A DNA stretch of 64,000 bases from Collimonas sp. PA-H2 (GTDB lineage Bacteria > Pseudomonadota > Gammaproteobacteria > Burkholderiales > Burkholderiaceae_D): the NCBI RefSeq assembly GCF_002564105.1, contig NZ_PDBX01000001.1, forward strand, positions 310,001-374,000, given 5' to 3'. This document shows, one piece after another, positions 28,494-38,066 of the stretch. The notes beneath the pieces were generated by a model that saw nothing but the letters and a program-made list of their open reading frames with translations, ran no database searches and was not told where the DNA came from. Position 1 is the first letter of the stretch, and every line of letters starts with the position of its first letter. Made by a program: the position numbers and the translations under genes.

Positions 28494-29797
28494 GGTTCTT
28501 CACGGATTATCGGGAAGTAATCTAGAAATGGGAAAGCGGTGAAGTAAGTTTAAACTTGTTGTGCGACCAACAGTTTCTACCCAACCCCACCGCTTTCAAT
28601 GACGGATAATAATCTTGACCTCCCATTCTGGGAAGGCTTTCGCGTCTGGAATTTTGACCGACGCGACGACGACACTTGGATCAGCCTTGTGCCCACTGAC
28701 GGCGCGCCAATGATTTGCTCCGGCTGTGAGCAATCTTGTTCCCAAGTTCACGAGACCTCATACGTGACATGCCGATGCTCGGCGATTCTGTGTGGCTGCA
28801 GGTGAATCTTCGGCGGCTGCGCTGCGATTCCTGTGGCACACGCACCGAGCGTGTGAAGTGGCTGGATCGGCACGCACGCATTACTCAGCGTCTGGCCCAA
28901 TTCGTTGGTCTATGGTGCGAGAAGCTACCTGCGGCTCACGTCTGCAAGCTGTCCGGGCTGCACTGGGAAACGGTGCGCAAGATCGACCGACAACGCCTGG
29001 AGGGTAAATTGGCTGAGCTGCCTGACGCCCAGCCAACCAGGCTAGTGATGGATGAATTCGCGCTGTTCAAAGGACATCGCTATGCCACGGTTGTCCTCGA
29101 TGCCGACACGCGCCGCGTTCTCTGGGTTGGCGAGGGTCGTAGCAGAGAGGCAATTCGCGTGTTCTGTGAATGGCTAGGGCCGGCGCGTTGCGCCGATATA
29201 AAGGCAGTGGCCATGGACATGAATACGGCTTTCGACCTCGAAGTCCAGCTGCATTGCCCGCAAGCCAGAGTGGTCTACGACCTGTTTCATGTGATTGCCA
29301 AATACGGTCGGGAGGTGATCGACAGGGTGCGCGTGGACGAGGCCAATCGCCTTAAAGGCGATCTCCCTATGAGGCGTGTCGTCAAGCGCGCCCGATGGCT
29401 GTTGTTGCGCAATCGCAGCAACGTGCCGTCCGAGCAGCAGCCGAAATTGGACGAACTGCTAGCTGCAAACAAAGCATTGATGACGGTCTACATTATGAAG
29501 GCCAGTCTGAAGGAACTATGGCAGGCCACTAGCGCTTGGCATTGGCGCAACGCCTGGCGCGCCTGGCTAAAGATGGCCCATGACAGTAGCATCGAGCCAC
29601 TACAGAAATTTGCCAAAAAGCTCAAAATCTACTGGCGTGGAATCATAGCCAGGGTACGCTGGCCGATGCACACAGGGCAGCTCGAAGGAATTAACAATCG
29701 CATCAAAGTGATGAAGCGCATGGCATACGGATACCGGGATAGCGCCTTCTTCTTCCTGAAGATTAAAGCCGCCTATCCCGGTAATCCGTGAAGAACC
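28494..29797 (+). mobile_element. ISL3-family insertion sequence, 1304 bp
   Basis: The element is bounded by inverted repeats starting GGTTCTTCACGGATTA: the left end reads GGTTCTTCACGGATTATCGGGA and the right end, on the other strand, GGTTCTTCACGGATTACCGGGA, one difference in 22. It is flanked on both sides by eight A (28486-28493 and 29798-29805), matching the 8-base target duplication of ISL3 elements. It carries one transposase gene, frameshifted. The target is the A/T tract of a small-RNA terminator, described separately. Confidence 0.92.
28599..29791 (+). pseudogene. ISL3-family transposase, frameshifted
   Basis: The first part (28599 to about 28775) encodes MTDNNLDLPFWEGFRVWNF and the zinc-finger start CSGCEQSCSQVHET. 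The remainder (from about 28770) continues in another frame with IRDMPMLGDSVW, LRRLRCDSCGTRTERV, helix-turn-helix LSGLHWETVRKID and a DDE domain: DEFALFKGHRYATVVLD, MDMNTAFDLE ... VVYDLFHVIAK and GQLEGINNRIKVMKRMAYGYRD. The second frame runs open to 29791. Compared with my memory of ISL3 transposases, about three residues are missing at the junction, suggesting a deletion of around 10 bases. The catalytic residues lie in the intact downstream part. A sequencing error or programmed shift cannot be excluded, but there is no homopolymer there. Confidence 0.85.
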
Positions 29798-29864
29798 AAA
29801 AAAAAGCCCGCAGCGCTAAGGCTTGCGGGCTGAATCCAAACCTAGGAGGTGTTGGAGGAGACAG
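29798..29864 (-). ncRNA. anti-Shine-Dalgarno small RNA, copy A
   Basis: Read on the minus strand: a -10-like TATAGT (complement of 29870-29875), then about 67 nt beginning near 29864 with CACCTGTCTCCTCC and CACCTCCTA, the block GTTTGGATTCA, and a hairpin GCCCGCA...TGCGGGC followed by eight T. CTCCTCC and CCTCC are complementary to ribosome-binding sites. The T tract of its terminator is the target duplication of the adjacent ISL3 element, so the insertion left the terminator whole. The design resembles the betaproteobacterial toxic small RNA family; the assignment is by recall. Confidence 0.7.
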
Positions 29865-30069
29865 GTGTGACTATAGCAATACGACCCATGTTTGTATGCT
29901 TTATAGTTCACATACCTGATATTCGGGAAGTGCATAACAAAACTCAAAACCAGCGCTTGCATAGTCCTTGCCACCGGGACAGTTTGCGTACATCATTGAG
30001 AGGCAGCCAGATAGCCTGCCCTATCGATCCCGTCTGACTCTGCGCAACCGTATTATCGTGGAGAACATG

Positions 30070-30324
30070 ATGGACAACGTACTTGCTGCACCTCTTCTCA
30101 CTAAAGCCGGGATCCTGTTTTCGGTAACAGTCGAGTTCAAACAATATCAATGCCTGGTGCCGGCAACCACCCTTTCCGACCTGTCGCATTCGAAAGATCC
30201 CAAGCTCGACCTGCTCGATACCTATCGGGCTTTCCAGAGCAAGATCGAAGGCGTCGCCCGCCGCCTGATTAGCGCCGGCCTGGAAGGAAAACCGCTGGTG
30301 GTCAGCACCGGCTATTTTCAATAA
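30070..30324 (+). CDS. small DUF1488-like protein
   Basis: An 84-residue protein, MDNVLAAPLLTKAGILFSVTV then EFKQYQCLVPATTLSDL and YRAFQSKIEGVARRLISAG. The pattern of a short beta-rich start and a C-terminal helix IEGVARR resembles the small DUF1488 family, whose function is unknown; I am only moderately sure of the match. A GGAG site lies six bases before the ATG at 30070 (a preceding ATG at 30067 is too close to it). Confidence 0.6.
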   Translation: MDNVLAAPLLTKAGILFSVTVEFKQYQCLVPATTLSDLSHSKDPKLDLLDTYRAFQSKIEGVARRLISAGLEGKPLVVSTGYFQ

Positions 30325-30396
30325 TCCGGACGCTGCCCGGAATTCCTCAAGCCATCGCAGGCAATCACGGCCTGCAACGGCGGTTCACATTCCGCT

Positions 30397-30837
30397 TCAA
30401 TTGTTAAGCAGAGCGCGCCGCTTCAACAGCGCTTCGCGCAGCTTGTCGTAGCCCAGATTGAACAGGAAAGTATAGGGTAGGAAGAACATCAGTAAGCCGA
30501 TGTCGAGGATCAGTGCATCGAGCAAGCTCATGTCCAGCCACCACGCCACCAGCGGCACCACGATCGCCACCAGGCCCAGTTCGAACGTGACAGCATGCAC
30601 CGCCCGGACCGCCATGGTGCGGACTATGCGCCAATGCCGTTCGACGCGGTCGAACATGGCGTTGAAAATCATGTTCCAGCTCATCGCCACCAGCGAGATC
30701 ATCAGCGTCAGCGCGCCCGCGTGCGCCATCGGCATTTTCATTACCCACGACAAGACCGGCGCGGTCAGGCCGACTGCCAACGCTTCGAAAATCAGCGCGT
30801 GAGTGATGCGCTCACCCCAGGTTTTATTGGTATTCAT
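30397..30837 (-). CDS. PACE-family multidrug/biocide efflux protein
   Basis: A 146-residue inner-membrane protein made of two bacterial transmembrane pair domains, four helices in all. Family marks are WGERITHALIFEALAVG with the conserved glutamate (about residue 18), SWNMIFNAMFDRVERHW, RAVHAVTFELG and the C-terminal FNLGYDKLREALL. AceI of Acinetobacter, the founder, exports chlorhexidine and short diamines. GGAGG lies four bases before the ATG. A LysR regulator is divergently transcribed from a shared 109-base promoter, exactly as is usual for PACE genes. Confidence 0.9.
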   Translation of the reverse strand: MNTNKTWGERITHALIFEALAVGLTAPVLSWVMKMPMAHAGALTLMISLVAMSWNMIFNAMFDRVERHWRIVRTMAVRAVHAVTFELGLVAIVVPLVAWWLDMSLLDALILDIGLLMFFLPYTFLFNLGYDKLREALLKRRALLNN

Positions 30838-30912
30838 ATTGCCTCCGTTGCTTCAGAAATGTCTGATGCAAGGATTTTCTTCGATTAAGCTGATACTATA
30901 AAACTAGTTACC

Positions 30913-30927
30913 ATCGGTTAAACCGAT
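30913..30927. promoter_or_regulatory. LysR box, perfect palindrome between PACE and LysR genes
   Basis: ATCGGTTAAACCGAT is a perfect 7-1-7 palindrome with the T-N11-A form of LysR operators. It lies 20 bases before the LysR ATG and about 76 bases before the PACE ATG, with a TATAAA-like sequence (30895-30900) next to it. Probable autoregulation and inducer-dependent control of the efflux gene. Confidence 0.7.
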
Positions 30928-30946
30928 ACATTGGAGCCATTACGCC

Positions 30947-31816
30947 ATGCGCCATTCGCTGGAAACCCTGTTCATGTTTGTCGAAGCGGCGACGCTGGGC
31001 TCGTTTTCCGCGGCGGCGCGCAAATTGGGCAAGCAGCAATCTACCGTCAGCGAGGCCATCGCCAACCTGGAAATCGACCTCGGCCTGACCCTGTTCGACC
31101 GCGCCACCCGCCGTCCCAGCCTGACGCCCCAGGGCCAGGCGATGCTGGTGTACGCCCAGCAGGTGATCGAGGCCAGCGACCGCCTGGAACGCTCTGCCCA
31201 TCGGCTGGCCGACGGCCTCGAACCGCAGCTGACCCTGGTGCTGTCCGATACTTACCAGTCGGACCGCTTTGAAGAAATCCTCACCAGTTTTGAACAGCGC
31301 TATCCCGAACTGGAGCTGGAATGCCTGATTGCGGAGCGCAACGACGTGGTAGCGCTGGTGCAAGAAGGGCGCGCCCATCTCGGGCTGGTGGCGGCGCAGG
31401 CGGATTACCCGCCCGACATCGGCTTCGAATCGGTGCCCGACCGCTCGGCCATCGGCCTGTATGTCGGCAAGCAGCACCCACTCGCCAAGGCGCGCCACAT
31501 TACTACCGAAATGCTGCACAACGCGCGCGAGCTGCGTCTCAGCACCTATGGCGAAGACAGCGCCGACGCGGTGCAGCGCCGCCGAGGCCGCTCCTGGACT
31601 GCCTCCAGCTATCTGCTGCTGCTGGAAATGACAGAACTGGGCTTTGGCTGGGCCGAACTGCCGTACTGGCTGGCCAAGCGCTTTGCCGCCAACAGCCTGC
31701 TGGAACTGCAGGTGCGCGGCTGGCCGAAAAGCATACAGGTGGATGCAGTCTGGTCGCGCCGCCGCGGATTGGGGCCGGCCGGCAGCTGGCTGCTGGATAC
31801 GCTGATGGCGCGATGA
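30947..31816 (+). CDS. LysR-family regulator of the PACE efflux gene
   Basis: A 289-residue LysR protein. The N-terminal helix-turn-helix reads TLGSFSAAARKLGKQQSTVSEAIANLEIDLGLTLFDR (residues about 17-53), followed by the linker helix and a periplasmic-binding-like ligand domain. The second residue of recognition, QQSTVSEAI, is typical. Divergence from a PACE gene with a perfect T-N11-A site between them suggests it senses a PACE substrate such as a short-chain diamine. Confidence 0.88.
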   Translation: MRHSLETLFMFVEAATLGSFSAAARKLGKQQSTVSEAIANLEIDLGLTLFDRATRRPSLTPQGQAMLVYAQQVIEASDRLERSAHRLADGLEPQLTLVLSDTYQSDRFEEILTSFEQRYPELELECLIAERNDVVALVQEGRAHLGLVAAQADYPPDIGFESVPDRSAIGLYVGKQHPLAKARHITTEMLHNARELRLSTYGEDSADAVQRRRGRSWTASSYLLLLEMTELGFGWAELPYWLAKRFAANSLLELQVRGWPKSIQVDAVWSRRRGLGPAGSWLLDTLMAR

Positions 31817-31892
31817 ACGGCCGGGGTGAAGAATAAGCCTATCTGGCGCGAATTTTGCTCTGCTCCTGTATCACTCAGAAAGCCGACAAAAA

Positions 31893-32051
31893 ATGTTAAT
31901 CATCCTTGCCTCAGCCAGTTTCGCCGCCCTGCTCGCCGTTTTCCTGCTGCACAAAGAACTCAAGACGCGCGGCTTCCTCTCCAGCTATAACCGCAACGCC
32001 CGCTCCAATGCCCGCCTGCAGCGAAGCCGGACCGCCAAACCCCATCAGTAA
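31893..32051 (+). CDS. possible 52-residue membrane protein
   Basis: An ATG-TAA frame of 53 codons encodes a hydrophobic helix at residues 2-19 (LIILASASFAALLAVFLL) followed by a basic, polar tail rich in Arg, Asn and Ser. The codon third positions are mostly G or C, as in neighbouring genes. There is no clear ribosome-binding site. A single-pass small membrane protein is plausible but unproven; nothing around it suggests a role. Confidence 0.35.
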   Translation: MLIILASASFAALLAVFLLHKELKTRGFLSSYNRNARSNARLQRSRTAKPHQ

Positions 32052-32085
32052 GCAGCAACCACCACTCTCTCCTTTTGCAGCAGGC

Positions 32086-32151
32086 AAAAAAAAGCCCGCT
32101 GTACCTTGCGGCGCGGGCTGAATCCAATCCATAGGGGAGTTGGAGGAGACG
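32086..32151 (-). ncRNA. anti-Shine-Dalgarno small RNA, copy B
   Basis: Minus strand: -10-like TATAGT (complement of 32157-32162), then GTTTCGTCTCCTCCAACTCC, CCTATGGA, TTGGATTCA and the hairpin GCCCGCGCCGCAAGG...GCGGGC followed by eight T. It keeps the CTCCTCC anti-Shine-Dalgarno block and adds CTCCCC. The terminator loop CCGCAAGGT is shared with copies C and D. Confidence 0.7.
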
Positions 32152-32211
32152 AAACAACTATAAGGTGAAATATTGCGCACTGCAATATAGTAAAAATACG
32201 GTATCAGACGT

Positions 32212-32248
32212 AAAAAAAACCTGCGGCCACAAGGCAAGCAGGTTTTTT
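32212..32248. terminator. bidirectional terminator between sRNA copies B and C
   Basis: AACCTGC (32218-32224) and GCAGGTT (32237-32243) form a stem with an eight-A run on one side and a six-T run on the other, so it can work for either strand. On the minus strand it would stop read-through before the copy B promoter. A TCTTCTCCTG stretch lies just upstream on that strand (complement of 32262-32271), so a diverged relative of the small RNAs is possible. The surrounding 32249-32463 shows no gene. Confidence 0.6.
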
Positions 32249-32463
32249 GCATTCATCAATACAGGAGAAGATTCCCGAAACCCAGACCTATCTGGAAAGT
32301 GGTTCCGACGTGTAACGAATCTACTCTTGTATTGGCCCGTATCGTATTTATCTGTATTTTTACAGCTAAATGCGACAGGCGATTTCTGGATGCTACACAG
32401 CTTTTGCCAAGAAAGCAAGGTACATTCGCCGAATACTGCGAACTTGCCACAAACTCCCCAGAC

Positions 32464-32531
32464 AAAAAAAAGCCCGCGGACCTTGCGGTGCGGGCTTGAA
32501 TCCAAACCTTAGGAGGTGTTGGAGGAGACAG
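32464..32531 (-). ncRNA. anti-Shine-Dalgarno small RNA, copy C
   Basis: Minus strand: TATAGT (complement of 32537-32542), with TTGGCG 18 bases upstream as a possible -35; transcript start near 32531. The body CACCTGTCTCCTCCAACACC, TCCTAAGG, TTTGGATTCA is nearly identical to copy A, and the hairpin GCCCGCACCGCAAGG...GCGGGC is followed by eight T. Copies A and C share the first 25 bases without change, which marks that block as the functional core. Confidence 0.72.
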
Positions 32532-32606
32532 GTGCAACTATATAGAGCCGACCTGCAAGCCGCCAATTTATTTAACGCATAACAGTTATTCACATAAATG
32601 ATAGCG

Positions 32607-33662
32607 TTACCATTGCTCTGCAGCATAAGGCAGCCGGCGCCCTTCTTCAGCACTCTGGCGCGCCAGTTCAAGGATTTCGGCGACGCTGACGGCAGCGTCC
32701 GGCGCCACTGGAAACGGTGCGCCATCCTGTATCGATGCCGCCACTGCGCGATAAAACTCGACATACGCGCCATCCAGGGTGGCCAGTTCGCCGCGTACGT
32801 CGAGCACGCCGTCCACTTCCCGGATCAGGCCGGGCGGATTGCTGGCCCAGCCCGGCTGGCCCGGCCTCAGGCCAGCCTTGAGCTGGTCTTCCTGGCTGTC
32901 CAGGCCGGTTTTCAGGTAGCTGCCGCGGCGGCCATGCAGCACGAAGCGCGGCGCTTCCAGCGCGCTCAAGGCGCTGGCATGCAACACTACCTGCTTGTCG
33001 GGATAGCCCAGCTGCAGGTGCACATAATCGTCCGCCTCGGCATGTTCGCGATAGGCCGCCACGGTGGCGTTCACGCTGTGCGGCGCACCGAACAGCAGCA
33101 GCGCCTGGTCGACCAGATGCGGGCCGAGGTCGTACAGCAAGCCGCCGCCGCTGAGCGCATTTTCGCGCCAGCGCTGCCGCACGGCGGGCCGGAAGCGGTC
33201 GAAATGCGATTCAAAATGAGTGATGTGGCCAAGCCGGCCGCTGGCCAACAGCGCCTGCACCGTGCGGAAATCGCCGTCCCAGCGCCGGTTGTGGAACGGC
33301 GCCAGCAGCAGTTTGCTGTCGCGCGCGGCGCGCGCCAGGATGCGCGCCTGTTCTGCCGTCAGCGTGACCGGCTTGTCGACCACCACGTGCTTGCCGGCAG
33401 CCAGCGTGCGACGGGCGAAATCGAAATGGGTGTCGTTCGGCGTCGCAATGGCGATACAGTCGATGGCCGGATCCGCCAGCAAGGCATCCAGATCGGCGAC
33501 GATACGCGCCTGCGGCCAAGCTTGCCGGGCAATGTCCGGCTGGCTGCTGGCAATGGCGCTAACTTCGGTGCGGCCGGAGTGGCCGATCAGCGGTGCATGG
33601 AAGGTGGCGCCGGCAAAGCCGTAGCCTAGCAGGCCGATTTTCAACAGGGGCTTGGTATGCAA
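32607..33662 (-). CDS. Gfo/Idh/MocA-family oxidoreductase
   Basis: A 351-residue NAD(P)-dependent oxidoreductase. The Rossmann start is KIGLLGYGFAGATFHAP, the cofactor/active-site motif is VVVDKPVT (the family usually has EKP) and GGGLLYDLGPHLVDQALLLFG carries the catalytic histidine. It is closest to the YdgJ/scyllo-inositol dehydrogenase-like branch by memory; the substrate, likely a sugar or polyol, is not known. No ATG exists at the 5' end. TTG at 33662 has AGGAG seven bases before it and is preferred over the TTG at 33689. DnaA boxes lie 31-81 bases upstream. Confidence 0.82.
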   Translation of the reverse strand: MHTKPLLKIGLLGYGFAGATFHAPLIGHSGRTEVSAIASSQPDIARQAWPQARIVADLDALLADPAIDCIAIATPNDTHFDFARRTLAAGKHVVVDKPVTLTAEQARILARAARDSKLLLAPFHNRRWDGDFRTVQALLASGRLGHITHFESHFDRFRPAVRQRWRENALSGGGLLYDLGPHLVDQALLLFGAPHSVNATVAAYREHAEADDYVHLQLGYPDKQVVLHASALSALEAPRFVLHGRRGSYLKTGLDSQEDQLKAGLRPGQPGWASNPPGLIREVDGVLDVRGELATLDGAYVEFYRAVAASIQDGAPFPVAPDAAVSVAEILELARQSAEEGRRLPYAAEQW

Positions 33663-33692
33663 AGTCAGACTCCTAGCAAGATCAGACAAAGA

Positions 33693-33743
33693 TTATCCAC
33701 AGCAAAAGTTACCCACAGAAATTGTGGATAGTCCTGTGGATAA
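33693..33743. promoter_or_regulatory. cluster of four DnaA boxes
   Basis: Within 51 bases: TTATCCACA (33693-33701) and TTACCCACA (33709-33717) on the plus strand, then TGTGGATAG (33723-33731) and TGTGGATAA (33735-33743), which are DnaA boxes on the minus strand. Two match the strong consensus TTATCCACA exactly. The arrangement is two boxes facing two, forming a quasi-palindrome. It lies just upstream of the oxidoreductase start. No dnaA, dnaN or other origin genes are near, so a titration or transcription-control site is likelier than oriC. Confidence 0.6.
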
Positions 33744-33823
33744 CCATCAATGATTTCAATCAAGTCTTTGATTCATATAGATTTTTACCGAACGCACAAG
33801 CTTGATACTCCTGGCATAACTTG

Positions 33824-33854
33824 CCGGGCTTGTTTTTTACGGAAAACAAGCCGG
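33824..33854. repeat. inverted repeat CCGGGCTTGTTTT / AAAACAAGCCGG
   Basis: A stem-loop with one bulged base, located just after the stop of the minus-strand unknown gene that ends at 33877. It could act as that gene's terminator, although no T run follows the stem on the minus strand. Confidence 0.35.
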
Positions 33855-33876
33855 CCTTGCGCCTCGCGAACGGCGC

Positions 33877-34239
33877 CTAGCTGGCCGCAGAGTCAATATC
33901 CGCCAGCGATTCGCGCCCTTTATCGGTGATGTCGAAACCGTCGCCAGCCGGCCTGGCGCTGATGTGGCCCTTTTTGCCGAGGAACATGGCGACGTCGGCC
34001 GCCAGCTTGGCGCCGGGATCGTTCGCTACGGCGCGCAGGCCGTCTATGCAATTCCTGATGAACAGGGTCTGCTGCCCTTTCTCGGTCAATGACAGGCCGC
34101 CGTTTTTTTCATACGCGATGTATTTCAGTCCAGCCAGGCGCTTGGTATTCCTTGCCACGCAAGCGCTCACCCTGCCGTGCGCCCCCTTGCCTATCTGTCC
34201 CAGGGCGTCGTATTCATCTCTTGTCAAACCGTCGTTCAT
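33877..34239 (-). CDS. unknown 120-residue protein with winged-helix-like repeats
   Basis: The protein reads MNDGLTRDEYDALGQIGKGAH at the start, then KRLAGLKYIAYEKNGGLSLTEKGQQTLFI and later ISARPAGDGFDITDKGRESLADI. The two segments ending LTEKGQQTL and ITDKGRESL look like the wing and last helix of small winged-helix domains, so a DNA-binding role is possible, but I do not recognise the family. The frame is open to 34425; the ATG at 34239 is chosen for its AGAGGAAG site. It is divergent from the gene at 34428. Confidence 0.6.
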   Translation of the reverse strand: MNDGLTRDEYDALGQIGKGAHGRVSACVARNTKRLAGLKYIAYEKNGGLSLTEKGQQTLFIRNCIDGLRAVANDPGAKLAADVAMFLGKKGHISARPAGDGFDITDKGRESLADIDSAAS

Positions 34240-34427
34240 TACTGCTTCCTCTGTAGAATTTGCCATGCTGCGACCCTCATGGTACGCGCCGCAACGACCA
34301 GCGGCAATGGATAGCAGCAAAGCGGGGGAGGCGCGACGCAGGATGAATGCATTGATTACTACAACCGTGAAATAAAATCTGGTATCGTTACCGCAGGTAT
34401 TCCAACCTCGCGCACAAGGAGACATTT

Positions 34428-34649
34428 ATGGATTTAACAGAAAAATTCGACGCCAAAGGCAAAGAAACAGGGAACGCCTATCATGTCGAGTGCTATAAAG
34501 ACTCGATTGAAAGAGCGACTGCAAACGGCACCGTCGCCTCCCTGCCGGGACGTGAAATCTACAAGCTGGCTGACGGACGGGCGCTGACTCCGTATGCGGA
34601 AGGAAAATTTGTGATTGATCAGACCGGTGAAAAAATTGTACGGGTCTAG
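34428..34649 (+). CDS. unknown 73-residue protein
   Basis: A short soluble protein (MDLTEKFDAKGKETGNAYHV, later GREIYKLADGRALTPYAEGKFVIDQTGEKIVRV) with no recognised family. It has a good AAGGAG ribosome-binding site seven bases before its ATG and is followed by a clear terminator, so it is very likely expressed as a single gene. It is the divergent partner of the unknown gene at 33877-34239. Confidence 0.65.
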   Translation: MDLTEKFDAKGKETGNAYHVECYKDSIERATANGTVASLPGREIYKLADGRALTPYAEGKFVIDQTGEKIVRV

Positions 34650-34699
34650 GCGCCCCCCCGTCTAAGCAGCTTTAGACACCCGCTTTGGCCGACATCATG

Positions 34700-34733
34700 A
34701 AAGCCTGCGAACCGTGAGGACGCAGGCTTTTTC
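34700..34733 (+). terminator. intrinsic terminator after the 73-residue gene
   Basis: AAAGCCTGCG (34700-34709) pairs perfectly with CGCAGGCTTT (34721-34730), followed by further T residues. Confidence 0.88.
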
Positions 34734-34764
34734 ATTGGACCAGCAAGACTGGATTGGAACCGCT

Positions 34765-35013
34765 CTACGCTCGTCCACCCTCGCGCAGGGTCCGGATCAA
34801 CAGATCCGCCATGACATTGCCGTCAAACTCGCGGAATCCCCGCTGGTAGACCAGCGCGCCAACCGCTATCAGCCGGTACAGCTCTTCCTCTGTCAGCTTA
34901 TAGGACAATTTGGCGATTTCATTGGCGAACATCTGTACGATGTCGTCGTCGCTGGTCAGCGGCACCTGGCAACTCGCCCTACCCCACATTTCGATGATCT
35001 TGGCTGCCTTCAT
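34765..35013 (-). CDS. unknown 82-residue protein
   Basis: A small acidic, helical protein (MKAAKIIEMWGRASCQVPLT ... FANEIAKLSYKLTEEELYRLIAVGALVYQRG). No family recognised. The ATG at 35013 has GGAGG five bases before it, so I chose it over the frame start at 35055. It lies 75 bases after the phosphopantetheinyl transferase gene on the same strand. Confidence 0.6.
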   Translation of the reverse strand: MKAAKIIEMWGRASCQVPLTSDDDIVQMFANEIAKLSYKLTEEELYRLIAVGALVYQRGFREFDGNVMADLLIRTLREGGRA

Positions 35014-35088
35014 AAAAACCTCCAGAAGATTTCCAGTATAGATGCCGCACCGCAAATATCCAGTCGCTCGCAGCTATCGATCAGGCTG

Positions 35089-35844
35089 TCAGAATAGGCA
35101 AAGGGTGGCGATGTTATTGCTTGAATAACGGTAGCGGATACAATACTGGCTGCCTTTGACGCACTGCGGCGACAAGCTGCTCAGCAGTCTCAGCATGAGG
35201 CTGCCATGCGCCTCATCCAGCTCACACACCTCGACGTCGAGGAAGTCGAAGTAACGACCGACAAACGGATACAGTGCCTTGAACAGGCTTTCCTTTGCCG
35301 AGAACACCAGGCTCAGCCAGCGCTCCAGCGCCAAGCCGGCGGCGCTGCCGATGGCCAGTTCGGCTGCTGTCATCAAGTGCTCGACCAGCGGTTGCGCCGC
35401 CTCGCGGCTGAGCATGGTTTCGATATCGATGCCCAGGGCGTGCCATTCCTCGCTCGCGGCCGCCACTGCCACGGCCAGGCCGTCGCCATGGCTGACCGAA
35501 CCGATATAGCCCTGCGGCCAAAGCGGCGCCCGATGCTCGCCGATTGCCAGCGTCTCGGCTCCGGTATAACCTTGTTTTTGCAAGGCCCGCAGCGCACACA
35601 AGCGGCCGGCGGCAAACTCGACCTGGCGCTTCAGCACGGCGTTGGCCAGCGAAGCCGGCAGCACGATGCCGGCGGCTTTCAGGCCGGCCAGCTGGCCGCC
35701 ATCGACGGCATAGCGCAGCCCGGCCTGACTGACTGAGTCGGGCAGTAGCGGTAAACCGGCATCGGTCACAAGGTCTGCGGGAAATGGCATGGTTTTTCGA
35801 TCAAGGTCTGGGGTTGCGCCGCCGTCGCGCGGATGGTCAGACAT
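35089..35844 (-). CDS. 4'-phosphopantetheinyl transferase, EntD type
   Basis: A protein of about 251 residues that moves phosphopantetheine from coenzyme A to carrier proteins of siderophore, polyketide or non-ribosomal peptide synthesis. Family motifs are GEHRAPLWPQGYIGSVSHGDG, the metal-binding GIDIE and the C-terminal FSAKESLFKALYP. The frame is open to 35904. ATG 35844 (MSDHPRDGG) overlaps a TATAAT hexamer, so if that is the promoter the true start is 35790 (MPFPADLVTDAG). No synthase or siderophore gene is in the window. Confidence 0.85.
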   Translation of the reverse strand: MSDHPRDGGATPDLDRKTMPFPADLVTDAGLPLLPDSVSQAGLRYAVDGGQLAGLKAAGIVLPASLANAVLKRQVEFAAGRLCALRALQKQGYTGAETLAIGEHRAPLWPQGYIGSVSHGDGLAVAVAAASEEWHALGIDIETMLSREAAQPLVEHLMTAAELAIGSAAGLALERWLSLVFSAKESLFKALYPFVGRYFDFLDVEVCELDEAHGSLMLRLLSSLSPQCVKGSQYCIRYRYSSNNIATLCLF

Positions 35845-35890
35845 TATAGCGCCCGGGTGAATTCGCCCCCGGACACAGCCGCGATAACGC

Positions 35891-35920
35891 AAAAACCCGC
35901 ACACCTTGCGGCAGCGGGTT
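35891..35920 (-). terminator. terminator with the same CCGCAAGGT loop as the small RNAs
   Basis: On the minus strand AACCCGC...TGCCGCAAGGTGTGCGGGTTTTT forms a hairpin plus T run. The loop CCGCAAGGT is the one in small-RNA copies B, C and D, but the sequence upstream lacks the UUUGGAUUC block and any CCUCC. It may be a remnant of a fifth copy, or just a terminator upstream of the phosphopantetheinyl transferase gene. Confidence 0.6.
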
Positions 35921-36135
35921 CATTAGGCAACGGAATATCTGGTGCCGGTGATCGAGGCTACCGGCTAACCTGCTGATGGCAAGACACCCTTCGAAAAACA
36001 CGCATCCGGCTGGGTTCAGCTAAATTCGGCTTTATGAGTGAGCACTAAGTCAACACCTCGCATTTTACGCAGCCAAGATGACAGCGGCATGACGGCGGCA
36101 TGATCACTATCGCTCCCGGCCCCTGAAGCAGAGAC

Positions 36136-36201
36136 AAAAAAAGGCCCGCGATACCTTGCGGTCACGGGCCGAATCCAAACTCGGGGAGAGTGTAGAAGAC
36201 G
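36136..36201 (-). ncRNA. diverged small RNA, copy D, anti-Shine-Dalgarno block decayed
   Basis: Minus strand: -10-like TACAAT (complement of 36207-36212), then CTCCGTCTTCTACACTCTCC, CCGAG, TTTGGATTC and hairpin GGCCCGTGACCGCAAGG...CGCGGGCC followed by seven T. The 3' half matches copies A-C. The 5' half has GTCTTCTACAC in place of GTCTCCTCCAAC, so the strongest anti-Shine-Dalgarno segment is gone, although CTCCCC remains. Confidence 0.6.
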
Positions 36202-36235
36202 GAGTTATTGTAACTTCGCCGGAAAATCGGCACAG

Positions 36236-36251
36236 CTGTCAAAGTTGACAG
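36236..36251. promoter_or_regulatory. palindrome CTGTCAA-AG-TTGACAG
   Basis: A 7-2-7 perfect inverted repeat between the promoter of small-RNA copy D and the MHS transporter gene. It could be an operator for either. A tandem repeat of TGTAAGTTTC (36285-36304) lies between it and the transporter start. The 35921-36135 stretch has no gene I can support. Confidence 0.4.
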
Positions 36252-36380: not shown

Positions 36381-38066
36381 ATGGCTACACTACAACCTAC
36401 CGCAGGCGGGATTAAACCCGCCAACCGCGGCCTGACCTCAGAGGAGCGCAAGGTTATTTTTGCGTCGTCCCTGGGCACTGTGTTCGAATGGTACGATTTC
36501 TACCTGTACGGCTCGCTGGCGGCAATTATCGCCAAACAATTCTTTTCCGGCACCGATCCTAATACCGGCTTCATTTTTGCCCTGCTGGCATTTGCCGCAG
36601 GCTTCATCGTGCGGCCGTTTGGCGCGCTGGTATTCGGCCGCCTGGGCGACATGATCGGCCGCAAGTTCACCTTCCTGGTGACCATCCTGATCATGGGCGC
36701 CTCGACGTTCATCGTCGGCCTCCTGCCTAATTACGCCTCGATCGGCATCGCCGCGCCTATCATCCTGATCACCCTGCGGATTTTGCAGGGTCTGGCTCTG
36801 GGCGGCGAATACGGTGGCGCCGCCACCTATGTCGCCGAACATGCGCCGAACGACAAACGCGGCGCGTTCACCTCCTGGATTCAAACCACCGCGACCTTGG
36901 GCCTGTTCCTGTCGCTGCTGGTGATCCTGGGCGTACGCAGCGCCGTTGGCGAAGAAGCGTTTTCAGCCTGGGGCTGGCGTATTCCCTTCCTGGTCTCCGT
37001 CATCCTGCTGGCGGTTTCGGTCTGGATCCGCCTGTCGATGAATGAATCGCCGGCGTTTGCCCGCATGAAAGCAGAAGGCAAGACTTCCAAGGCGCCACTG
37101 ACAGAAGCCTTCGGCCAATGGAAAAACCTGAAGCTGGTGATCCTGGCGCTGATCGGCCTGACCGCCGGCCAGGCTGTGGTCTGGTACACAGGCCAGTTCT
37201 ATGCCCTGTTCTTCCTGACCCAGTCGCTCAAGGTCGACATGTCGACCGCGAACATCCTGATCGCACTGGCGCTGTTGCTGGGTACGCCGTTCTTCGTGAT
37301 CTTCGGCACGCTGTCCGACAAGATCGGCCGCAAGCCGATCATCATGGCGGGTTGCCTGATTGCCGCGCTGACCTATTTCCCTATCTTCTCCGGCCTGACT
37401 CACTATGCGAATCCTGCGCTGGAAGCAGCGTTGAAAAGCGCGCCGGTGATTGTCACCGCCGATCCAGCCGCCTGCCAGTTCCAGTTCAACCCGACCGGCA
37501 CCAAGAAATTCACATCGTCCTGCGACATCGCCAAAGCCAAGTTGTCAGCGGCTTCGGTCAACTATGAAAACGTCGTCGGCGAAGCAGGTTCGGTAGCTAC
37601 TATCAAGATCGGCGACAAGATCCTGACTTCGTACGATGCCAAGGGCCTGTCGAAAGAAGACGCCGCTGCCAAGGACAAGGCTTTCTCGGCCGAACTGTCG
37701 GGCGACATCAAGGCAGCCGGCTATCCGACCAAGGCCGATCCGGAACAGATGAACAAGCCGATGGTGCTGTTGCTGCTGTTCATCCTGGTGATCTACGTCA
37801 CCATGGTGTATGGCCCGATCGCCGCGATGCTGGTTGAAATGTTCCCGACCCGCATCCGCTACACCTCTATGTCGATGCCTTACCACATCGGCAACGGCTG
37901 GTTCGGCGGCTTGCTGCCAACCACGGCGTTTGCGCTGGTGGCCTTCAAGGGCGATATCTACTACGGTTTGTGGTATCCGATCGTGATTGCAGCTGCCACC
38001 TTCGTCATCGGCATGCTGTTTATCAAGGAAACCAAGGACTACGATATTTACCAAGCCGAGCGCTAA
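36381..38066 (+). CDS. MFS transporter of the metabolite:H+ symporter (MHS) group with a large loop
   Basis: A 561-residue transporter. N-terminal SSLGTVFEWYDFYLYGSLA, RPFGALVFGRLGDMIGRKF and ILQGLALGGEYGGAATYVAEHAP are MHS signatures (relatives carry shikimate, proline/betaine, citrate, oxoglutarate). After GTLSDKIGRKPIIMAG an insertion of about 110 residues (near residues 345-455) interrupts the usual 430-residue fold; it is polar and contains two cysteines (near QFQF and SSCDIAK). The final helices are GPIAAMLVEMFPTRIRYTSMS onward. A TCCTAGGAG-type site precedes the ATG. Substrate unknown. Confidence 0.88.
   Translation: MATLQPTAGGIKPANRGLTSEERKVIFASSLGTVFEWYDFYLYGSLAAIIAKQFFSGTDPNTGFIFALLAFAAGFIVRPFGALVFGRLGDMIGRKFTFLVTILIMGASTFIVGLLPNYASIGIAAPIILITLRILQGLALGGEYGGAATYVAEHAPNDKRGAFTSWIQTTATLGLFLSLLVILGVRSAVGEEAFSAWGWRIPFLVSVILLAVSVWIRLSMNESPAFARMKAEGKTSKAPLTEAFGQWKNLKLVILALIGLTAGQAVVWYTGQFYALFFLTQSLKVDMSTANILIALALLLGTPFFVIFGTLSDKIGRKPIIMAGCLIAALTYFPIFSGLTHYANPALEAALKSAPVIVTADPAACQFQFNPTGTKKFTSSCDIAKAKLSAASVNYENVVGEAGSVATIKIGDKILTSYDAKGLSKEDAAAKDKAFSAELSGDIKAAGYPTKADPEQMNKPMVLLLLFILVIYVTMVYGPIAAMLVEMFPTRIRYTSMSMPYHIGNGWFGGLLPTTAFALVAFKGDIYYGLWYPIVIAAATFVIGMLFIKETKDYDIYQAER

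Follow-up and report, generated by a model that had tools for sequence, protein, structure and literature searches.

A multicopy set of RF02278 small RNAs with differing upstream regions in Collimonas sp. PA-H2

The Rfam family RF02278 (Betaproteobacteria toxic sRNA) was, according to papers that cite its description, named for the toxicity of cloned copies in Escherichia coli, and overexpression of one relative, Burkholderia ncS27, is reported to slow growth. For the double-hairpin RNAs of this kind in Burkholderia, published predictions place 55–80% of contacts at the start region, over the ribosome-binding site, and the copy counts given are 3–5 in Burkholderia and 4 in Herbaspirillum seropedicae. 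Bordetella pertussis S17 is described as an Hfq-dependent small RNA (sRNA) that represses a target and that anneals through its tail or loop to targets that are largely uptake and catabolic genes. Here we analyse four related elements, A–D, in a 64,000-nucleotide (nt) stretch of Collimonas sp. PA-H2 (the window; positions 310001–374000 of a 5.57-Mb contig). With ncS03, ncS05, ncS27 and ncS62 of Burkholderia cenocepacia they share two hairpins, a 5′ UGUCUCCUCC tail, a CU-rich core, a U-run terminator and scattered paralogues, and the 5′ end of S17 is nearly identical to that of the family. The Collimonas RNAs differ from the B. cenocepacia double-hairpin RNAs in their number (9–15 copies), in an upstream element that we call the class I operator (searched for in Collimonas genomes) and in the diverged copy D. 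The paralogous NmsR pair of Neisseria, to which Sass 2017 drew the likeness, also directs two CU-rich unpaired stretches against ribosome-binding sites; this likeness is one of description, and NmsR is a tandem pair whereas the Collimonas set is scattered.

An initial annotation of the window, made from the letters alone, had reported four minus-strand elements with -10-like hexamers, anti-Shine–Dalgarno blocks and a terminal GC hairpin with a U run, and had assigned them to the betaproteobacterial toxic sRNA family. The elements, their hexamers and their terminators all stand, with coordinates within one base of those first given (Table 1). By covariance-model score (gathering score 50 bits), A, B and C are members of RF02278, with E-values of 1e-8 to 5e-8 over the window; D misses the cut-off (E = 2.7e-4 over 8 kb) and belongs to the paralogue set as a diverged relative. 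Folding z-scores against shuffles are -2.6 for B, -4.0 for C and -3.8 for D, next to the value for A in Table 1. RF02278 and, weakly, RF02837 were the only families found for A–D at E ≤ 1; the latter, anti-hemB, was rejected at 20.6 bits for A against a gathering score of 49.5. CUCCUCC occurs in A, B and C as first described, and D has GUCUUCUACACUCUCCCC instead. A further block said to be present in every copy, UUUGGAUUC, is found in A, C and D, and B carries AUUGGAUUC.

For the fold we compared 67 sequences, 13 from Collimonas sp. PA-H2 and 54 from 45 other genomes, leaving out three in which the pattern missed the 3′ arm (L051, one L086 copy and one L087 copy). Among the 40 distinct tail-plus-hairpin sequences, which include B although the pattern assigned it a wrong 3′ arm, 220 of the 240 cells that make up pairs 1–6 of hairpin 1 hold canonical pairs, compared with a mean of 186 and a maximum of 198 in 2,000 shuffles, a shuffle that leaves relatedness in. 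Pair 3 is C–G in 28 sequences and U–A in 12; pair 5 is A–U in 10, C–G in 11, U–A in 12, U–G in 4 and something else in 3. The two-hairpin fold of the family is thus supported by compensatory changes in hairpin 1, and this pairing makes the UUUGGAUUC block (UUGGA) the 3′ arm of hairpin 1, matched to UCCAA, rather than a target block in its own right. In D, hairpin 1 is rearranged.

Both modules expected to contact ribosome-binding sites are conserved, and the anti-Shine–Dalgarno interpretation is supported. The 5′ tail contains UCUCC in 38 of the 40 distinct sequences, and all 40 have CUCC, CCUC or UCCC in the core. A–C present an unpaired CU-rich tail at the 5′ end, which in D reads CUUC. A and C also contain CACCUCCU, which we take to correspond to the 16S 3′ end.

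We consider it very probable that A–C are trans-acting RF02278 sRNAs, and D their diverged relative, each made from its own promoter as an RNA of about 66 nt that lowers translation of uptake and catabolism genes. The evidence for this comes from sequence, a structure with compensatory changes, copy number, upstream conservation and an operator exclusive to these RNAs. Transcription would begin at about the 5′ end U/CGUCUCC (CGUCUUC in D) and stop at the intrinsic terminator. Hairpin 1, through its CU-rich core, and the unpaired tail UGUCUCC would then pair with purine-rich ribosome-binding sites, probably with the assistance of Hfq, and this pairing would reduce translation of nutrient uptake and catabolism genes.

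The initial annotation described a local cluster, a picture that holds for the window but is incomplete, as 13 copies lie around the chromosome. A search of the genome with RF02278 gave 12 places above the gathering score, plus D and weaker ones, and a search with R1, a covariance model built from the 13 copies themselves, gave those 13 at 55 bits or more, the next place scoring 38 bits. Nine R1 matches below 40 bits, including those at 898843, 3726631, 2266257 and 345887, were not counted as copies. According to a simple frame caller, the 13 copies are located between longer genes, four of them overlapping otherwise unsupported predicted frames of 63–112 aa. At E ≤ 0.01, 13 of 14 congeners have 9–15 copies and the remaining one, a 1.7-Mb genome, has one; we infer that the Collimonas family has grown to this size under several distinct promoters. 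Nine genomes from other genera of the same family carry 0–13. A search of 250 genomes from the order under stricter filters gave one or more copies at E ≤ 1e-4 in 136, and outside the family none exceeds four among the matches listed, with one reaching five at the looser cut of E ≤ 0.01. Counting the sRNA copies alone, all 13 on the PA-H2 contig (C1) point away from dnaA at 2.305 Mb and are therefore on the leading strand, provided that replication starts at dnaA. In another genus of the family, six related sRNAs lie within 16 kb on the same strand (L086, G019:C113:123001-142500).

Within the genus, the window set is conserved in position. In a comparison of nine Collimonas loci, the window and eight named ones, B, C and D occur in 9/9 and A in 7/9; a search of five further Collimonas genomes (R1, E ≤ 0.1) gave both B and C in all five, D in four and A in two. 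The sRNAs are 90–95% identical within orthologue groups. Identity over the first 65 nt upstream is 85% for A, 87% for B, 85% for C and 67% for D; over the next 65 nt (-66 to -130) it is 63%, 85%, 78% and 47%, respectively, and the stretch downstream falls to 33–59%. For 33 of the 34 cluster copies the closest relative is the positional orthologue, which indicates that the set is old and rules out recent amplification or general gene conversion. The sole exception is the A copy of L056 (8810-8876), the 3′ half of which resembles the C copy of that strain, possibly through an exchange between A and C by gene conversion.

Paralogues vary most in the upstream region and terminator loop. Class I comprises A, C and the copies at 893, 3825 and 5060 kb, and class II those at 128, 167, 183 and 2296 kb; core and upstream regions both differ between the classes. 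A strict pattern for the class I operator gave 19 matches in 12 of 15 Collimonas genomes and none when reversed, and every match starts at a distance of exactly 61 nt upstream of an RF02278 copy, so that within the 15 genomes searched this operator is exclusive to these sRNAs. In PA-H2 the strict matches are at C and at the 893-kb copy; A gave no match to the strict pattern and carries a close variant at the same position. B has an upstream region of its own, and all four upstream regions of A–D differ while each is conserved between species.

These features bear on two proposals that had been made for the multiplicity of copies, dosage and copy-by-copy diversification of targets. A and C, which have the same hairpin core, are compatible with dosage or with separate control, C carrying the sRNA-only operator and A the variant. 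The idea that each paralogue has acquired its own set of mRNAs is plausible for D, whose UCUCCCC loop is kept in 9/9 loci and whose tail is altered to GUCUUC in 6/9 (GUCUCC in the other 3/9), and it draws on the difference between class I and class II cores. As a general account of the set we find it rather unlikely, because 12 of the 13 genome copies retain a GUCUCC or GCCUCC tail and the paralogues diverge chiefly in the upstream region and the terminator loop, as described above; four differing and conserved upstream regions indicate separate control rather than new targets.

A different possibility is that these RNAs block translation generally, as toxins or decoys, with many copies raising the dosage, for example in growth arrest. 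The toxicity in E. coli for which the family is named, the match of tail and loop to Shine–Dalgarno sequences, and the CACCUCCU of A and C with its correspondence to the 16S 3′ end, are in keeping with this. However, the extended match GGAGACA is present at only 3 of 230 starts, which does not support it as a general Collimonas ribosome-binding site and suggests that the tail selects few genes. The separately conserved upstream regions of A–D also speak against a general block, as does the published report that S17 left exponential growth of E. coli unimpaired. We therefore regard a general block as improbable.

The initial annotation had itself named the finding that would overturn it, namely that the copies are only 3′ ends of longer minus-strand transcripts; a dispersed terminator repeat is another form of this explanation, in either case with no function in trans. 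An intrinsic terminator does end every copy, and C is partly exposed to this explanation, as a same-strand oxidoreductase gene ends 76 nt upstream. A, B and D, by contrast, have no same-strand gene close upstream, so that their layout makes it unlikely for them. Moreover, conservation and covariation extend to the 5′ half, which plays no part in termination; the upstream regions of A–D are kept across Collimonas species; and relatives in Burkholderia and Bordetella are reported to have mapped 5′ ends. Taken as the main function of the copies, termination is thus a very improbable explanation. Recent amplification by the ISL3-family element that adjoins A can be dismissed almost entirely, as Collimonas humicola has A with no element at that site and nearly all cluster copies are most like their positional orthologues.

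The targets of these sRNAs are likely to be the ribosome-binding sites of uptake and catabolism genes, as predicted from complementarity. In 15 Collimonas genomes, GGAGGAGAC located 1–11 nt before an ATG gave 79 matches compared with 11 for the reversed pattern, some of the 79 being sRNA loci on the opposite strand, and the matches often precede transport and catabolic genes. A frame of at least 100 aa follows the ATG in 21 of 30 loci; 16 of the 21 were scanned, and the other five share their initial residues with a scanned one. Candidates of the uptake type are two major facilitator superfamily (MFS) proteins, a DcuC carrier, porins (OprD, Porin_4) and an ATP-binding cassette (ABC) binding protein, Peripla_BP_6 (five genomes); those of the catabolic type are an amidohydrolase (two genomes), an alcohol-dehydrogenase-type enzyme and D-serine dehydratase; and an FG-GAP protein, a chalcone-isomerase-like protein, an alpha/beta hydrolase and a lectin are of other kinds. 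Because the frames of L167 and L191 match only a chemotaxis-receptor signalling domain and that of L183 begins inside a dehydrogenase domain, these three ATGs are probably internal to genes. The pattern GGAGGAGA adds CstA and an SBP_bac_3 protein in PA-H2 and others in genome G007. For the control start pattern ATAAGGAAA, 16 of 30 loci were scanned, and these gave four clear uptake or catabolic genes and five genes with no Pfam match, this being one arbitrary control with functional classes assigned by judgement. The predicted targets agree with published predictions for Burkholderia and with the direct repression reported for Bordetella S17. Separately, GGAGGAGACTCTGACATG recurs in seven Collimonas genomes (L179, L185, L190 and four further places) before a very short frame, of 4–27 aa in three of them; it may represent a leader peptide or a further regulatory site.

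Several results weigh against the view that A–D are independently transcribed repressors of uptake and catabolism. D lies below the Rfam gathering score and lacks CUCCUCC, and in A and C the second anti-Shine–Dalgarno stretch is mostly paired, leaving a loop of 3–4 nt. The -35 boxes of A–D look weak, and upstream conservation of B and C reaches past the promoter. When 15 loci each from PA-H2 (G000) and G007 with frames longer than 40 aa were compared, leaving out five further places in the former and three in the latter, no orthologous pair was found among the genes starting with GGAGGAGA. The computed binding of the sRNA tails is stronger at starts, a result partly built in, since sites were picked by complementarity and starts were called with a Shine–Dalgarno term. 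The unimpaired growth of E. coli with S17 counts here as well. In its processing S17 differs from the window copies: it is reported as a 190-nt transcript that RNase E cuts to 67 nt, whereas A–D have promoter-like elements directly before the short form, the -10-like hexamers lying 5–6 nt upstream of the inferred 5′ end. The promoters of ncS27 and S17 are reported to lie far upstream, as does a promoter-like element of the 1.756-Mb copy in PA-H2 (L005), which in this respect is like the copies of other families.

Table 1. Features of the sRNA elements and adjoining sites in the window, with strand and supporting evidence; R1 scores come from the model that has A and D among its own rows.
Feature	Position	Strand	Evidence
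ISL3-family insertion sequence in the U-run of the terminator of A, outside the sRNA	28494..29797	+	22-bp inverted repeats; transposase PF01610; 8-A run on each side
sRNA copy A, class I, double hairpin, 66 nt	29798..29863	-	RF02278 56.6 bits; R1 78.3 bits; fold -25.3 kcal/mol, z -4.0
-10-like hexamer TATAGT of A	29870..29875	-	Sequence; kept in 7/7 A orthologues
Upstream element of A, GAATATCAGGTAT ... AAAGCATAC	29888..29924	-	Kept in 7/7 A orthologues; at the position of the class I operator, a variant of it
sRNA copy B	32086..32151	-	RF02278 53.9 bits; present in 9/9 loci
-10-like hexamer TATAGT of B	32157..32162	-	Sequence
TTGC(A/G)N(T)GC upstream of B, like one half of a PhaR site	32173..32185	-	TTGCRNYGC in 9/9 B orthologues; 2 mismatches to TTGCNNNGCANCA
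sRNA copy C, class I	32464..32530	-	RF02278 54.2 bits; present in 9/9 loci
-10-like hexamer TATAGT of C	32537..32542	-	Sequence
Class I operator GAATAACTGTTATGCGTTAAATAAA of C	32567..32591	-	Strict pattern match
sRNA copy D, diverged relative	36136..36201	-	RF02278 35.4 bits (<50); R1 61.8 bits; orthologue in 9/9 loci
-10-like hexamer TACAAT of D	36207..36212	-	Sequence
Palindrome CTGTCA-N4-TGACAG between D and the divergent transporter gene 36381-38066	36236..36251	-	Kept in 9/9 D orthologues

The genes around the four copies encode the ISL3 transposase, a BTP-type efflux protein, a LysR regulator, a Gfo/Idh/MocA oxidoreductase, a phosphopantetheinyl transferase and an MFS transporter. The LysR protein, encoded between A and B, is 98% identical to a C. 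humicola protein, and its next seven matches are also from Collimonas. The insertion sequence hit an eight-A target, the U-run of the terminator of A, and the target duplication keeps that terminator whole; the empty site in C. humicola rules out A having been carried by the element. On the minus strand at 35887-35995, before the phosphopantetheinyl transferase gene, a conserved block of about 60 nt ends in a terminator and has a counterpart in 8/8 named Collimonas loci; it is perhaps another sRNA or a leader. Between B and C, at 32212-32250, a terminator-like hairpin has T runs on both sides and occurs also upstream of B in the compared Collimonas loci.

Promoter sequences of relatives suggest that these sRNAs may be connected with carbon-storage sensing. 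A motif, TTGC(A/G)N(Y)GCA(C/G)(A/C)A, was noticed upstream of sRNAs from many families before any literature motif was scored, and we took it to resemble the site of PhaR, a repressor that senses carbon storage. The motifs scored are themselves from papers: the footprint of PhbF/PhaR in H. seropedicae contains TG[N]TGC[N]3GCAA, and the PhaR sites of R. eutropha are summarized as YTKNTGCRNYGCANMAR, with three mismatches as that paper's own limit. We examined 120 nt upstream of one best sRNA per genome (45) and 965 control windows of the same loci, thereby reusing the sequences in which the motif was noticed. The reverse complement of TG[N]TGC[N]3GCAA is exact in 17/45 compared with 4/965 and is found with one mismatch allowed in 31/45 compared with 77/965. 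For YTKNTGCRNYGCANMAR, the counts are 9/45 against 4/965 at one mismatch or fewer, 26 against 35 at two and 35/45 against 164/965 at three. These sites often coincide with the -35 or -10 of RF02278 promoters across the order.

PhaR (PF07879) is encoded in 41 of 46 genomes, including that of PA-H2 (domain at contig C2:94990-95172, within an open frame of 192 aa). Genomes with PhaR have YTKNTGCRNYGCANMAR more often than those without at three mismatches (34/40 vs 1/5; Fisher 0.006), and the corresponding figures are 25/40 vs 1/5 (0.09) at two and 9/40 vs 0/5 (0.31) at one; for TG[N]TGC[N]3GCAA they are 17/40 vs 0/5 (0.08) when exact and 30/40 vs 1/5 (0.03) with one mismatch, the five PhaR-less cases not being independent, as three belong to one family. 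Four of the five PhaR-less genomes (L127, L128, L133, L048) have a palindrome, ATTAG-N6-CTAAT, upstream of the sRNA, which occurs in 0/40 of the others. In the six-copy cluster of L086, all six sRNAs have a PhaR-like palindrome at -25/-26, five with three mismatches and one with four; because 29 of 162 windows of that locus reach three mismatches, the constant position is the stronger evidence. Only one copy of a three-copy cluster in a third genus has such a palindrome at -25/-26, with three mismatches.

The PA-H2 copies themselves are less clear. Three of the 13 have YTKNTGCRNYGCANMAR at three mismatches or fewer, compared with 330 of 2,017 control windows, which is no excess; TTGCNNNGCANCA at one mismatch or fewer precedes 5/13 compared with 127/2017, and one of these five, before C, was set aside. 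It is an exact box located in the terminal part of the oxidoreductase gene, and it is not conserved. No window copy has an intact site, the mismatches being four for A, four for B and five for D, with three at -99 for C, a level that 16% of control windows reach, in a gene end and not conserved in C orthologues. Upstream of B, the full 17-nt motif is likewise not intact at the half-site listed in Table 1, and the best match (the four-mismatch one) sits elsewhere. A TGC...RNYGC half beside the -10 is kept in orthologues of the 893-kb and 5060-kb copies, and in the 3825-kb copy. Where the leader is long, the box coincides in part with a TTGCAT-type -35, a layout also seen in the mapped promoter of S17, so that some of its conservation may be that of the -35; in short copies it overlaps the -10 instead. 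The regions upstream of phaR genes contain an exact box within 400 nt in only 2 of 30 loci, arguing against easy transfer of the motif.

A PhaR-controlled sRNA is already known. MmgR (alpha-r8) of Sinorhizobium meliloti is described as a short, Hfq-dependent sRNA linked to polyhydroxybutyrate (PHB) and repressed by AniA (PhaR), and a dyad motif is reported to lie between its -35 and -10; it provides an alphaproteobacterial precedent. The paper describing RF02278 sRNAs in Burkholderia gives what regulates their accumulation as unknown. We did not find the PhaR link to RF02278 in print: a whole-word search found PhaR unmentioned in the main texts of papers naming the family, and searches that combined sRNA with PhaR terms gave, among the matches listed, no paper on PhaR together with this family. 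From the promoter sequences we tentatively propose, with nearly as much weight on this being right as on its being wrong, that in Burkholderiales the PhaR circuit has the RF02278 sRNAs as its RNA arm. In such a circuit PhaR would keep the sRNA promoters closed until PHB granules titrate it away, whereupon the sRNAs would cover the ribosome-binding sites of genes for uptake and catabolism; PhaR-less lineages would use ATTAG-N6-CTAAT, part of the Collimonas set, including A and C, would have moved to the sRNA-only operator, and MmgR would be the alphaproteobacterial counterpart.

Together, our results describe a known kind of sRNA, correctly recognized from the letters alone, in an enlarged set with diversified promoters. 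Relatives of RF02278 occur widely in the order. With its similar RNAs under differing promoters, the expansion in Collimonas offers a natural system in which to ask why bacteria keep a dozen similar sRNAs. The PhaR-site pattern, derived from the family rather than from the four window copies, provides a testable idea on their control. If it is true, a cell with full carbon stores would stop carbon uptake, and a granule-sensing repressor acting over a translation-blocking RNA would tie carbon storage to uptake, extending the link between PhaR and sRNAs beyond MmgR.

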